Source: a virus
Virus record (IMG/VR): IMGVR_UViG_3300042301_002368
Location: 1-41,104 of that record
DNA: 41,104 nt
Strand: one strand, 5' to 3'
Shown: piece after piece, positions 3,618 through 10,050 of the stretch
Position numbering within the stretch: the stretch's first letter is position 1
Layout: each line of letters opens with the position of its first letter
Program-made: the position numbers and the translations under genes
The notes under the pieces: generated by a model
Databases searched by the model: none
Seen by the model: only the letters and a program-made list of their open reading frames with translations
What the model was told of the DNA's origin: nothing

Positions 3618-4601
3618 TCAGTAAAGGGCATCAGGGGCGATTGGCGCAACATCGCAATCTCTAGCGTCTCGAAAGCCGAGAAAAACTGGGTGGCGAGGTG
3701 CGACCTTAATTCCGAAATTTTGGAACTTGTATTTAACGAGGCGTCCCACGAGAGATTCACGCTCAGACCAATAGGTCTGTCTTTGTAAATCAGTGAAACC
3801 TGAGCCGACGTTAAATTCGACCCCATCACTGCGGCGGACACGTAGTGCTCCAAGGATACCTGCTGGCACTTTGTTTGCAGCATGGTCTGACCGCTCCGAA
3901 AGACCAAGAGCGTTAGTGGTGCTCTCATTAAGATTTCGGAATAACTCTTCGTATCCAACACACACAGCTTCTTCATCGGTGAATCGCTTGAGTTTCAGAA
4001 GCCAAGCCTGCTTCTCGGTCGATCGACCGAACTTGTAAGGACCATCGAAGGAGCGAATCATGACTCCCTCGAACTTCATCTCTAGGCAAGCACGCTCATA
4101 AGAGAGCAGTTCAGTGACGTTCTTGATCACCACTGGATACAGTGGCTTGATGTGAGGGTGCTGATCGAGTTTCAGGTCAATCAGTTGCTGAACTCGCTCG
4201 AAGTGAGTCAGTCCAGGAGCAATGATGTCAAAGACATGAAAGACGAAGTTGGGCTGACCATCCTCTGACATGATTGCAGAGGAAGCATTCTGGAAGGTCT
4301 CGCCTACGATCAGTTCGCCATCGAGGTTGGGCAGACCCAAATCCCCAATGATCTGACGTATGAAGTTGTTGGGTATAGGCTTGAGGTTTCGCGAGAGAAC
4401 TTGGACCTTGTTAGGGTTCTTAGGGTCGATGAAGTCCTGGTCCAGTGTTACACACCGGATGCCGTCGATTTTAGGTGTGCAGAGAACAGGGAACTGTAGC
4501 GTCTCTGCATCTCGGCAGAGTGCCGCAAGCATGGGGCGAAAACCCTCATGCCGCTTAATCTTAGTCTCTTTCAAGACCTTGTCAAAGGAAGAAGAATCCA
4601 T
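3618..4601 (-). CDS. ATP-dependent DNA ligase (327 aa)
   Basis: Seals nicks in duplex DNA using ATP during phage replication. The adenylation motif KxDGxR is PKIDGIR with nucleophile Lys44. Motif III is NLDGELIVG, motif IIIa FVFHVFDI, motif IV EGVMIRSFDG and motif V LLKLKRF. The remaining C-terminal part (about 230-327) fits the OB-fold domain. Length is close to the T7 ligase class (about 360 aa). The ATG at 4601 is chosen because the longer frame to 4667 adds a serine-rich tail not seen in ligases; that tail region overlaps a small membrane ORF instead. It follows the promoter-proximal gene of the operon that starts at 5197. Confidence 0.93.
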   Translation of the reverse strand: MDSSSFDKVLKETKIKRHEGFRPMLAALCRDAETLQFPVLCTPKIDGIRCVTLDQDFIDPKNPNKVQVLSRNLKPIPNNFIRQIIGDLGLPNLDGELIVGETFQNASSAIMSEDGQPNFVFHVFDIIAPGLTHFERVQQLIDLKLDQHPHIKPLYPVVIKNVTELLSYERACLEMKFEGVMIRSFDGPYKFGRSTEKQAWLLKLKRFTDEEAVCVGYEELFRNLNESTTNALGLSERSDHAANKVPAGILGALRVRRSDGVEFNVGSGFTDLQRQTYWSERESLVGRLVKYKFQNFGIKVAPRHPVFLGFRDARDCDVAPIAPDALY

Positions 4602-6295: not shown

Positions 6296-6511
6296 TTATT
6301 TGCTCTCCTTCTTGCCAGTTAACCAGTGAGACATCCGATTACCAGAGTCTACTGCAATACAGTGACGAACAAATTCGGAGCGACCTTGGAGCTTCGACAC
6401 ACGACGGTCAGACTTCGTGCCGATAGGCTTCTTGCGACGCTTCTTGTTGGAAGCATTGGGCTTATGGTCGAAGGCAAACCGCTCCATGGACTTTCGGGAA
6501 ATGTTCTGCAT
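6296..6511 (-). CDS. hypothetical basic protein (71 aa)
   Basis: A short, strongly basic protein with a Lys/Arg cluster (NKKRRKKPIGTKSDRR) and a basic end (GKKESK). Such composition suggests nucleic-acid or ribosome binding, but no family is recognised. It is the first gene after the terminator at 6553-6578 and is spaced one base from the next gene. No Shine-Dalgarno sequence precedes its ATG (upstream CTTTTAAACAGCT). No clear promoter is seen in the 40 bases between the terminator and the start, so it may depend on read-through or on a promoter I cannot recognise. Confidence 0.55.
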   Translation of the reverse strand: MQNISRKSMERFAFDHKPNASNKKRRKKPIGTKSDRRVSKLQGRSEFVRHCIAVDSGNRMSHWLTGKKESK

Positions 6512-6599: not shown

Positions 6600-7220
6600 T
6601 TAGGCGTTCAGCTTGGCCACGATCTCGGCCTTCTGCTCCTCAGAGAGCTCGCTCACGCGGTCAGACTTGAAGAACGCGAGGATGGTCTCGATCTTGACCT
6701 TCGAGGCAGAGAAGCCAAGGCCACCGCCGCCGGTAGCAGACTTCTTGTAGCCGAAGGTGCCTTCCGGATAAACCAGTTCGCCCTTCTCGTCGGTCTTCTT
6801 CTCCAGGAACTGCTTGCGAGCCTGGATTTTCTTGATCTCCTCGGAGTGCCAGTCTTCAGCGGAGGTGTCAGTGAGACGAGCCTCAGCCAGAGCCTCAGCA
6901 ATCTCACGGGTCGTGTGAACGAAGTTGCCGTCCTCGTCCTTCTCCTGAAGCATGCGGTCGATGACCTCGAAACGCTGCTTGCGCTCGCTCACGACTTCCT
7001 TGCTCTTCTCCTTGAGCTGGTCCTTCAGCGCCTTCAGCTGAGCCGAAGAGAGCTTGGTGAGGTCGATCACCGGAACCTGAGGCTTGGTGTCCTCAGCGGA
7101 ATCGGTAGCCTCAGCAGCAGGCGTCTCGTTGTTGGGTTCAGCGACAGCGACGTTGCTGGTCTCGTTGAGGTCAGAAGGAGCGGACTCCTTGTTCTTCTTG
7201 GTCTTGTTGGACTTAGCCAT
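6600..7220 (-). CDS. hypothetical protein, paralogue of the 8707-9219 gene (206 aa)
   Basis: An abundant-looking, lysine-rich protein with no recognised family. Residues 1-50 are a low-complexity Lys then Glu/Ala/Pro/Thr region. The rest aligns with the 170-aa product at 8707-9219: IDLTKLSSAQLKALKDQLKE against VDITKLDKAQLAALKAQLDQ, a shared KDE(A/D)G(N/A)F motif, and a shared (Y/H)xEGTFGYKxxAT segment. A Gly-rich stretch (ATGGGGLGF) follows, then a helical end ELSEEQKAEIVAKLN. The ATG at 7220 is chosen because it matches the paralogue and follows an A/C-rich, SD-free leader (ACCATACCATC) resembling the capsid gene leader. It is monocistronic, ending at a strong terminator. Confidence 0.75.
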   Translation of the reverse strand: MAKSNKTKKNKESAPSDLNETSNVAVAEPNNETPAAEATDSAEDTKPQVPVIDLTKLSSAQLKALKDQLKEKSKEVVSERKQRFEVIDRMLQEKDEDGNFVHTTREIAEALAEARLTDTSAEDWHSEEIKKIQARKQFLEKKTDEKGELVYPEGTFGYKKSATGGGGLGFSASKVKIETILAFFKSDRVSELSEEQKAEIVAKLNA

Positions 7221-7519
7221 GATGGTATGGTGGATTCGTTGTTGAGTCGGATTTGTTGAACTGAAGGTAGTCAACCTATCCTGGTCCATAGCGTTGACCC
7301 TCGACCGCGCCGGAGTCAACACCCAAAACGCACAAAATTGCACTGAATATCATAAAAGTTTTGGTCGTAGCATGGACCAGAGTGTGAAGTTTGAGCTATT
7401 ATTTTCCAGTGGTGTCTCTGTATGTGGAAGAGCGCCGTGTTCTGGGTCGTGTCTCATGGCTCGCCTGAACAAACGTGGAACACAACATCGTTATGAGTTG
7501 ACCTGTTCCAGAATTTTGT

Positions 7520-7555
7520 TTTAAACAGGTGAATTGTGATTTCGTTTAAACAGGT
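7520..7555. repeat. direct repeat TTTAAACAGGT, 25 bases apart
   Basis: Perfect 11-bp copies at 7520-7530 and 7545-7555, just over two helical turns apart, so on the same DNA face. A partial inverted copy (ACCTGTT) begins at 7501. Related (C)GTTTAAA words recur at about 7962, 8075 and 8241 in the same non-coding region, consistent with a protein-binding array. Confidence 0.5.
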
Positions 7556-7878
7556 TTTGAACGGTCGAAAATAGGGTCGTGGTGCGTGTAACGTGTAACA
7601 TTGAACGCGTAACTGGGACGTTTTGTCTCACTCCGAGTTCGTGAACGTGCCCTGAACGGAGGGGTTGAATGGTCTTGTGGGATGTAAAATGCTGAATTGA
7701 TTGGTCTTGAATGGATCATGTGCCATGTGACGGCGTAGGCGTTGGGCGAAGTTGGTTTTTGAAGACAATTTTTTGAAAATGTTACTCATTGCTTTTTTCC
7801 TTAGGCGGTGATTTATTCGTGATTTCTTTTAAAGCTTCGATTACCAACGACTTACGTATAAAGGGGTCAGGGGTCTAG

Positions 7879-7927
7879 TCATTTCTTTTATCTGTAAGAT
7901 TTCCAAGGGTTTGCGTCAAACCTTAGG
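7879..7927 (+). repeat. 49-bp inverted repeat, left copy
   Basis: Pairs with the reverse complement of 8121-8169. Both copies read T(C/G)ATTTCTTTTA, then GTAAGATTT, then a short hairpin (GGTTTG...AAACC) ending CCTT. They differ at about eight positions and by a two-base gap, yet the internal hairpin is kept in both, suggesting it is functional. Confidence 0.65.
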
Positions 7928-8120
7928 ATTACAGAACTGGTTAACTGGCAAGAAGTTGTGCGTTTAAAAATTTCACGTTCGGAAAAAGTCAATCACGCCA
8001 AACAGCGGATCGTGAGTGCCTCAAAAATTTCTGCAAAAATGACCCTTTTCGGTGATTTCCGAAATCGTTTAAAACTGTAAACCCTAGCGGCCCTTAGAAA
8101 TAAAAGAAATGAGCACCGAA

Positions 8121-8169
8121 CGAAGGTTTTTACCCAAACCTTTGCAAATCTTACCTTTAAAAGAAATCA
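8121..8169 (-). repeat. 49-bp inverted repeat, right copy
   Basis: Diverged inverted partner of 7879-7927, with the same order of elements on the minus strand: TTTCTTTTA, GTAAGATTT, and an AAGGTTT/AAACCTT hairpin. It overlaps the outer right motif of the 350-bp dyad. Confidence 0.65.
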
Positions 8170-8215
8170 CCGGAAATTACCCCCCTTAAGGGAAAATTCA
8201 ATCACCACGGAAGCT

Positions 8216-8254
8216 GTTGACAGTCAACGAGTTTTGAGGCGTTTAAAACTCGTT
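8216..8254. repeat. adjacent palindrome and 10-bp stem hairpin
   Basis: GTTGAC-a-GTCAAC at 8216-8228 is a perfect 6-bp dyad of operator type. It overlaps AACGAGTTTT (8226-8235), which pairs perfectly with AAAACTCGTT (8245-8254) across a 9-base loop. There is no T-run, so this is not a simple terminator. Confidence 0.6.
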
Positions 8255-8295
8255 CGTATCCAGTTTTTGGATACACGTATCCAGTTTTTGGATAC
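8255..8295. repeat. tandem pair of identical hairpins
   Basis: A 20-base unit occurs at 8255-8274 and again at 8276-8295 (period 21, about two helical turns). Each copy contains GTATCCA / TGGATAC, a 7-bp stem with a GTTTT loop. Identical tandem palindromes in phase suggest an operator or structured initiator-binding site. Confidence 0.75.
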
Positions 8296-8346
8296 GAAAA
8301 TTGTGTTCATGACGCAAATGTCCTGATTCCTAGGGTGCTCGCGTCA

Positions 8347-8370
8347 ACGAGGTGCGGTTTATTACCTCGT
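8347..8370. repeat. hairpin ACGAGGT / ACCTCGT
   Basis: A perfect 7-bp stem (8347-8353 with 8364-8370) around a 10-base loop in the non-coding region. No U-tract follows, so it is structural or regulatory if functional. Confidence 0.4.
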
Positions 8371-8465
8371 CCTTGTTCCCTCCCATTCACGGTTCGTATT
8401 CCAGGTTCAACCCACCTCGCGCCTTAGTCCCTAATGCCATGTTTCACGATCCATGGGACTCTCGA

Positions 8466-8489
8466 ACGCGCCGCCATAGGGCGGCGCGT
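8466..8489. repeat. GC-rich 10-bp perfect hairpin
   Basis: ACGCGCCGCC (8466-8475) pairs with GGCGGCGCGT (8480-8489) around an ATAG loop. It is very stable, but no T-run follows on either strand, so it may be a structural element rather than an intrinsic terminator. Confidence 0.55.
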
Positions 8490-8649
8490 GCTGTTAGGTC
8501 AGTTACTGGAATCAACCGCCCCAGTTTCAGCTGATTTTTGAGCCTAGGTCCAACCATGGACCGACCCGCAAAACCGCGTTAAAACCGTGTTTAAAGGCCA
8601 CAAAATCGTGCCTCGCGAGCCGGAAACCCTACTCCCCGACTCCAGGACA

Positions 8650-8686
8650 CGAGAAAGCCCCGGAACCCTATGGGTTGCCGGGGCTT
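8650..8686 (-). terminator. strong intrinsic terminator after the 170-aa gene
   Basis: On the minus strand AAGCCCCGG pairs with CCGGGGCTT, and inside it AACCC pairs with GGGTT around an ATA loop with a single bulge. It is followed by TTTCTCG. It lies about 20 bases after the stop at 8707. Confidence 0.85.
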
Positions 8687-8706
8687 GATGCCTGAGACTA
8701 GAAACC

Positions 8707-9219
8707 TTACTTCTTGGCTAGAGTCTTGACGATGTCGCCGAATTGACCCTTGAGGCTGGTGATGATGTGCCCGACATCCTCAGCGGTCAACGCGTTGACG
8801 TTCTCAGGGTTCGCGAACCAAGCCACGACGTTCTCAGGCTTGTATTGGCGCGGCTGCAATGCCGTAGCAGTAGCCTTGTAGCCGAACGTGCCTTCAGCAT
8901 GGACCAGGTTGCCGGTCTCATCGGTCTCCTTCTCCAGCTTCTGCTTGAATGCCTGTATCTTCTTCAGGACGGAATCGCGCTGCTTCTGGTCCGTAGTGGT
9001 GGTAGGGTCAAGCGACTCCAGACCGTCACGGAACAGCAGGGACCATATATCAGCCGTCGTGTTGCGGAACGCCCCAGCCTCATCCTTGTCCATAAGCATC
9101 TGCTTGACCGTGTCCGCCCACAACTTGCGGGAATCGCGCTTCTGCTTGGACAACTGATCGAGTTGCGCCTTGAGCGCAGCCAACTGAGCCTTGTCCAACT
9201 TGGTGATGTCAACGTTCAT
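8707..9219 (-). CDS. hypothetical protein, paralogue of the 6600-7220 gene (170 aa)
   Basis: No known family. It has three recognisable blocks shared with the 206-aa paralogue: an N-terminal helical block (VDITKLDKAQLAALKAQLDQ), a KDEAGAFRNTT block near residue 50, and IQAFKQKLEKETDETGN followed by the EGTFGYKAT segment near residue 115. It lacks the paralogue's low-complexity first 50 residues and Gly-rich stretch. The C-terminus is helical and lysine-terminated. It is the first minus-strand gene next to the late block, has its own candidate promoter (TTGACA at 9316-9321) and terminator, and is thus a single-gene early unit. A structural or DNA-associated role is only a guess. Confidence 0.75.
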   Translation of the reverse strand: MNVDITKLDKAQLAALKAQLDQLSKQKRDSRKLWADTVKQMLMDKDEAGAFRNTTADIWSLLFRDGLESLDPTTTTDQKQRDSVLKKIQAFKQKLEKETDETGNLVHAEGTFGYKATATALQPRQYKPENVVAWFANPENVNALTAEDVGHIITSLKGQFGDIVKTLAKK

Positions 9220-9292
9220 GTAATGTGCCGGTCAGTCTCAGCAGAGGCGCGACGTCGTGTCGTGTTGCTCTGTCTTCTCTGATCGTGCCACC

Positions 9293-9321
9293 ATCTTCGC
9301 TCATTCCGTGTCGCGTGTCAA
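9293..9321 (-). promoter_or_regulatory. candidate sigma70-type promoter for the 170-aa gene
   Basis: Minus strand: perfect TTGACA (9321-9316), a 17-base spacer, and GAAGAT (9298-9293), matching the -10 consensus at 3 of 6 positions. It lies about 75 bases upstream of the ATG at 9219. Confidence 0.5.
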
Positions 9322-9500
9322 GCCTGAACCCTGCTCCTACTAGGCAGGCAACGAGTTGCGTGAGTCTTGAGCCATGCGTCCTGGAGCGTAGCGACCACGT
9401 AGCGTGTGCCGCGAACCTAGGCGCATGGCTCATGCGTCCTGGATTAAAGAATTCTTGTGCCTCGAAGGGTGGGGCCAGAGGGGAAGTTGCGGGACTCCAG

Positions 9501-9509
9501 TGTTATGAT
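9501..9509 (+). promoter_or_regulatory. candidate extended -10 promoter for the late block
   Basis: TGTTATGAT matches an extended -10 element (TGn plus TATGAT) about 130 bases before the small terminase gene. No good -35 box precedes it, so support is modest. Confidence 0.35.
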
Positions 9510-9578
9510 ACACGATCGCTCACATTGCAGAAACCATTTTCCAAGCTTCACATTCCAACTCCACATCAACCCAGAATC

Positions 9579-9614
9579 ATGGCACAAGCAACATTCGTTC
9601 CATTTCCCGCTTGA
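9579..9614 (+). CDS. possible 11-residue leader peptide
   Basis: ATG at 9579 opens an 11-codon frame (MAQATFVPFPA) ending at TGA 9614, 31 bases before the small terminase start. It follows an A/C-rich, SD-free stretch like those before several expressed genes. It could be a leader ORF or chance. Confidence 0.2.
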   Translation: MAQATFVPFPA

Positions 9615-9645
9615 CATCCTCCATGTTTTGAATCAACCACAATTC

Positions 9646-10050
9646 ATGTCACAGGCTCCAGCTACGCGAAGAGGCTTGCTTACGCAGCGAGAACGAGATG
9701 TAAGCATGGCAGTTGCTGCTTGCGAAGAGAAGAACTACAACCCGTTTGCAGAGCTAATTGAACTGGCTCAAGAAACACAGGAGGTAGAAGTCAAAGGCAA
9801 ACTAGTCAAGATTCACACAGCCTCCGTTACTGAGCGAATCAAGATTGCCTGCGAGATTGCTCAATACATCGATTCGAAAAAGAAGAACGTTGAGCCTGAG
9901 GGAACGAACAAAGGCGGCAACACTTTCAATATTACGATCAACAGGTTTCAACCTGCTGGCTCAAAAGAACTGAAGCCTGCTGAAGAAATCAAAGAAGCAG
10001 AAGTGGTCGTCAGAACGGTCTTACCAGATGGAAATAACGCTACCGTATAA
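9646..10050 (+). CDS. probable terminase small subunit (134 aa)
   Basis: Directly precedes, and overlaps by 23 bases, the large terminase gene, the usual place of the small subunit that recognises DNA for packaging. The sequence has an N-terminal basic helical part (ATRRGLLTQRERDVSMAVAA), a central helix with a charged surface (ITERIKIACEIAQYI-like), and a C-terminal beta-type segment (NTFNITINRFQ) of the kind used for oligomerisation. The family match is weak and rests mainly on position. The ATG at 9646 is preferred; the frame is open further upstream to 9457 but that part runs through the promoter region and reads as non-coding. No Shine-Dalgarno sequence is visible. Confidence 0.6.
   Translation: MSQAPATRRGLLTQRERDVSMAVAACEEKNYNPFAELIELAQETQEVEVKGKLVKIHTASVTERIKIACEIAQYIDSKKKNVEPEGTNKGGNTFNITINRFQPAGSKELKPAEEIKEAEVVVRTVLPDGNNATV

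Follow-up and report, generated by a model that had tools for sequence, protein, structure and literature searches.

The IMG/VR virus record IMGVR_UViG_3300042301_002368 represents an uncultured bacterial virus, and we analyzed its complete stretch of 41,104 bases (the window), focusing on a large imperfect palindrome, or dyad, that lies in non-coding DNA near 8 kb. The window carries a podovirus-type gene set that comprises a T7-like head-tail adaptor, a terminase, DNA polymerase A, helicases, an AEP-type primase, a ligase, and thymidylate synthase and kinase. According to the list of open reading frames (ORFs), the genes form two arms, one running leftward from 7.3 kb via 0/41 kb to 32.4 kb and the other rightward from approximately 9.6 kb to 32.1 kb. 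Near the point where the arms diverge is a non-coding region of 1363 bp (7344–8706), which is flanked by two paralogous leftward genes and contains the dyad. No ORF of at least 50 amino acids crosses the dyad, in agreement with the initial annotation of this DNA, which had placed a 350-bp dyad in a non-coding region and proposed it as a candidate replication origin. The near-identical contig L083 follows the window from position 8154 down to 1 and continues from 41104 to 37744, with a gap of 37 bases between the two segments; because it spans the junction of positions 1 and 41104, the map of the window is circular, with a length of approximately 41.14 kb. Relatives have a non-coding region of approximately 1.3–1.4 kb at the matching place.

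Gapped alignment to the reverse complement showed that no other inverted structure in the genome scores as high as the dyad, which spans 415 bp (7788–8202) around a center at 7995. This segment and its own reverse complement are identical in 58.9% of 431 alignment columns (E 1.4e-14), and its score of 66.8 bits compares with 36.8 bits for the runner-up in the genome and 35.4 bits for the best of 60 shuffles. The structure that had been annotated is therefore real, but it extends beyond the boundaries first given to it (7819–8170). Within the dyad are two perfect inverted repeats of 16 and 13 bp that share a center, exactly as had been described: GTGATTTCTTTTAAAG at 7819–7834 with its complement at 8155–8170 (center 7994.5), and TCATTTCTTTTAT at 7879–7891 and 8100–8112 (center 7995.5). 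The four mirrored motif copies that had been reported approximately 58 bases apart correspond to the 10-mer ATTTCTTTTA, which starts at 7822 and 7881 on the plus strand and at 8101 and 8158 on the minus strand, with spacings of 59 and 57. These are the only copies in the 41-kb genome, where 0.08 would be expected, and no shuffle reached four. Several copies of a repeated site are confined to one place in the genome, as is looked for in iteron-type origins. A further test counted inverted 9-mer seeds that have a common center; these were most numerous at 7994.5–7995.5, where 13 were found, compared with a maximum of 7 over 30 Markov shuffles. The seeds, the alignment score and the ATTTCTTTTA count all exceed shuffles or expectation, which bears out the earlier view that the mirrored spacing is hard to obtain by chance and excludes chance as the source of the dyad. 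A diverged inverted repeat, given before as 49 bp long and superimposed on the dyad, was also recovered (7878–7920 and 8128–8170, 81%), but it constitutes a second register of the dyad repeats with its center at 8024, which arises because all units resemble one another. As a separate observation, the 20-base sequence ACAGAACTGGTTAACTGGCA at 7936–7955 in the dyad has an exact inverted copy at 6308–6327, close to where a leftward ORF ends, and this pair is one of just two exact 20-bp repeats in the genome.

Each arm of the dyad consists of two units of approximately 40 bp, in which a ATTTCTTTTA box is followed by a core, and all four units face the center. The left arm holds, on the plus strand, unit L1 at 7819–7858 (GTGATTTCTTTTAAAGCTTCGATTACCAACGACTTACGTA; W-L1, GATTACCAACGACTTACGTA) and unit L2 at 7879–7917 (core TTTCCAAGGGTTTG; W-L2, GATTTCCAAGGGTTTGCGT). 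The right arm holds, on the minus strand, unit R2 at 8074–8112 (core GCTAGGGTTTACAG; W-R2, GGGCCGCTAGGGTTTACAG) and unit R1 at 8131–8170 (core TTTGCAAAGGTTTG; W-R1, GATTTGCAAAGGTTTGGGT). With a matrix built only from units of the related contig L005, L1 was the best match genome-wide (33.4 bits), and a weak fifth unit at 8206–8237 on the minus strand was the second (16.6 bits). The inner units enclose a moderately A+T-rich central spacer of approximately 156 bp (7918–8073), which measures approximately 182 bp in L005.

We compared this layout with the corresponding regions of relatives. The TerL proteins of L005 and L006 share 78% identity with that of the window, and the DNA of the dyad region barely aligns. 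L005 has eight units at 196–827, five on the plus strand to the left of the center and three on the minus strand to the right. Units of the window account for four of the five best matches of the L005-only matrix in 41 kb, and a matrix derived only from the window returned, as its eight best matches in L005, all eight units with plus-strand sites on the left and minus-strand sites on the right. Random orientations would produce the inward pattern with a chance of approximately 4% in L005 and 19% in the window, so that position and sequence carry most weight. L005 also has a significant inverted pair at 301–385 and 796–884 (E 2.5e-7). A different inverted pair is present in the relative G001 (E 5e-6), whose two contig ends were joined for this comparison at a point where bases may be missing. 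The distance from the dyad center to the end of the second flanking paralog is 711 bp in the window, 707 bp in L005 and 658 bp in G001. In the distant relative G002, core matches are present on both sides and point inward; G003 has retained the core on one side and has no significant dyad. The motif TTTRCWARGGTTTG occurs six times in four of the five paralog-bearing genomes compared with no occurrence in 81 kb of 17 paralog-less relatives, a co-occurrence for which common descent could account, the motif having been derived from the paralog-bearing group itself. When IMG/VR was searched with the unit pattern, matches were confined to this phage and the L005 lineage. Overall, the design is kept among relatives while the letters change. 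Conservation in close relatives, on which the initial annotation had let its proposal depend, was found in the position, the unit type and the convergent arrangement, and because these recur the dyad is very likely a protein-binding cis-element.

The flanking paralogs are candidate binders of the units. Paralog 1 (6600–7220, minus strand) opens the leftward operon and has a winged-helix-like core of low confidence, and paralog 2 (8707–9219, minus strand) lies on the opposite flank of the non-coding region. The paralogs matched no PHROG and no named Pfam family, and paralog 2 had no protein match among cultured phages. AlphaFold2 predicted the paralog core confidently, with a mean predicted local distance difference test score of 84.7 and a predicted template modeling score of 0.72, in the order helix-strand-helix-helix-hairpin. 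Winged-helix domains (forkhead, histone H1) made up most of the matches in structural alignment (VIA) of this core, and alignment of the whole protein returned BlaI/MecI amid unrelated helical proteins, with Z below 4 in both cases; a Foldseek fold search gave no significant match. The paralogs may be winged-helix-like, a low-confidence lead that is too weak to name a family.

Other motifs were found in the vicinity of the dyad. An isolated core, CAACGAGTTGCGTG, is present at 9349–9362 on the plus strand, approximately 130 bp upstream of paralog 2, and L005 has a counterpart, CAACGACTTACGTG, at the matching place (1939–1952). Two tandem palindromes, GTATCCAGTTTTTGGATAC, adjoin the dyad at 8256–8295. 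Six related palindromes occur in L005 at 1955–2139, located instead in front of its small terminase gene. A seven-base periodicity formed by CATGNNN-type heptads reaches its genome maximum at 7301–7900 and 9001–9900 of the window, upstream of both paralogs; heptads of this type, which look like heptad operator arrays, are also present in the relatives L084 and L085. The first output of unsupervised motif discovery was another, heptad-like motif and not the 40-bp unit. Sigma-70-like promoters numbered two in 2.9 kb, compared with 2.1 expected, and none fell within 7788–8202.

These results are best fitted by reading the dyad as an iteron-type origin of replication in a podovirus whose genome of approximately 41 kb maps as a circle, and we assign this reading a probability of about one half. 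From the layout and its conservation, which were observed directly, we infer a scheme of binding, opening and initiation. A phage-encoded DNA-binding protein, possibly a winged-helix-like paralog, would bind the units co-operatively from both sides. The bound initiator would open the central spacer, where the phage helicase, primase and DNA polymerase would load, and forks would run both ways, co-directionally with the transcription of the two gene arms. The extra core upstream of paralog 2 might serve autoregulation, like plasmid and phage initiator systems. The DNA polymerase, primase, helicases and ligase that the phage itself encodes count in favor of an origin, as do the mirrored repeats that other lineages of the terminase clade have upstream of the terminase. 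Several results weigh against it. No homologue of a known initiator was present among 20 proteins scanned against PHROGs, and the structural matches of the paralogs stay at Z below 4. The A+T content of the central spacer is approximately 60% in the window, compared with 68–75% at the center of L005, and neither the dyad nor its spacer is the least stable duplex of the genome. Near 8 kb, a sign change in the third-position GC skew coincides with the switch in gene direction; because the two are confounded, and the sole gene able to separate them is uninformative, the skew does not inform on origin function. Finally, the non-coding region holds a cluster of contig ends, whose positions differ. 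The earlier proposal of initiator binding or a bidirectional start of replication is thus supported in part: protein binding is very likely on the grounds of conservation, and an origin is the best fit, tempered by the points on initiator, central A+T content and skew.

The strongest rival, on account of the adjoining putative DNA-binding genes and the other regulator-like motifs, is an operator or enhancer array through which a paralog regulator would control the leftward operon, paralog 2 and the terminase operon with no role in replication. The paralogy of the flanking genes, the isolated core that precedes paralog 2 in both the window and L005, and the heptad periodicity and GTATCC palindromes of the region would all suit such an array, but the leftward operon starts approximately 600 bp downstream of the units, which face each other around a spacer in a manner unusual for operators, and the dyad contains no sigma-70-like promoter. 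We regard regulation alone as rather improbable. In T7-like phages, concatemer processing has been linked to a palindrome, and the dyad could likewise mark a concatemer junction at which terminal repeats are formed or cut. The contig ends speak for this role, which stays a rival because they cluster in the region: one sample yielded contigs that terminate at 8154 and 8200, L005 and L006 start in the non-coding region, and the 43.9-kb contig of G001 opens inside it. In the wider terminase clade, 19 ends lie upstream of TerL compared with 6 downstream (contigs of at least 12 kb, ends within 3.2 kb of TerL), although one of the 19, that of L011, may not be a true end. In pelagiphages whose terminases are related, terminal repeats of 125 bp lie close to terL (PMC10504331), which also counts for packaging. 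However, the starts of L005 and L006 differ by 45 bp, the ends at 8154 and 8200 leave a gap and have no repeat in common, and no direct terminal repeat common to the contig ends at the dyad region was seen; this disagreement between assemblies argues against one fixed terminus. In addition, the window, G002 and G003 assemble across the region, and the core is not common to other members of the terminase clade. A packaging or terminus element appears improbable, more so than an operator array.

Two further explanations carry little weight. If transcribed, the dyad might act as a long hairpin, and folding it as RNA gave a z-score of −4.1, but a stable fold is expected of any palindrome. The positions at which the arms mismatch bear no pairing signature: transitions account for 27 of 72, and G-U-compatible changes number 14 and 13 compared with approximately 12 expected, with no excess in either case. 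The region matched no Rfam covariance model at E up to 1, and the conserved part is a sequence core in inverted orientation, so that a structured RNA is very unlikely. Least credible of all is chance, or a decaying inverted duplication that has no function; inverted duplication can generate such repeats, but independent relatives hold the same arrangement with other sequences.

Mirror-symmetric viral core origins of the SV40 T-antigen type have binding sites that face each other around a center. Facing sites are found here as well, but those of the SV40 type and their center are much shorter, and we saw no evidence of a related initiator. The T7-type concatemer junction resembles this locus in being non-coding, palindromic and upstream of the terminase, with contig ends clustered here; it differs in its terminal repeat, since no common repeat was seen here and ends differ between assemblies. 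The nearest known design is the origin of phage lambda, in which gene O contains 19-bp iterons, repeated sites for O dimers, that flank an A+T-rich stretch of 40 bp on one side only (PMC5043065). Both phage genomes have approximately four copies of a repeated, partly palindromic element, which here lie next to a candidate opening region. Here, however, the units measure approximately 40 bp and form two convergent pairs around a 156-bp spacer, and the region is non-coding, whereas the lambda iterons lie within the initiator gene; no O homologue was found. Iteron plasmid origins of the P1, F and R6K type likewise have repeated sites, and autoregulation of the same kind is suggested by the additional partial site that precedes a nearby putative DNA-binding gene, but the units here are mirrored, with spacings of 57–75 bp. 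Replicators in which repeated initiator sites adjoin an opening region are already known from lambda and iteron plasmids (PMC5043065). If the dyad is an origin, the new element would be its split, mirrored layout of long units together with a linked pair of paralogs. No description of this combination was found in the literature searched, no cultured phage matched the window or the region at the DNA level, and the region was without a match among 50,697 phage records.

A broader and more doubtful proposal is that the split convergent iteron array represents a previously undescribed kind of phage replicator, read by a duplicated winged-helix family encoded on both flanks. Sites and proteins would change together while the architecture stays fixed, and equivalent mirrored arrays with unrelated letters would replace the array in neighboring podovirus lineages. 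For most environmental podoviruses, the replication start site and the starting protein are unknown. A conserved, genome-unique array with two adjoining candidate DNA-binding genes makes the question testable, and mirrored repeats upstream of terminase genes offer a recipe by which related phages could be searched for origins or packaging sites.

Other, more distant lineages of the terminase clade have mirrored repeats upstream of the terminase with unrelated letters and an A+T content of 72–78% (60–78% in G004 and G005). Inverted structures of at least 41 bits were found at roughly ten loci upstream of TerL compared with one downstream, a contrast that is supportive only, because the upstream stretches hold more non-coding DNA. 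G007 has a 237-bp palindrome upstream of TerL with 77% A+T, and G004 and G005 have TATTGGTGTATTGG-type arrays in common upstream of TerL. Mirrored TATTGG/CCAATA arrays with 60–78% A+T lie upstream of the terminase at 4030–4153 and 5188–5320 of L100 (G005) and at 294–492 of L008 (G004). In G010, a near-palindrome of 254 bp (L107, 2906–3159; 96.8 bits) is located approximately 2.9–3.1 kb upstream of TerL and overlaps an ORF in part.
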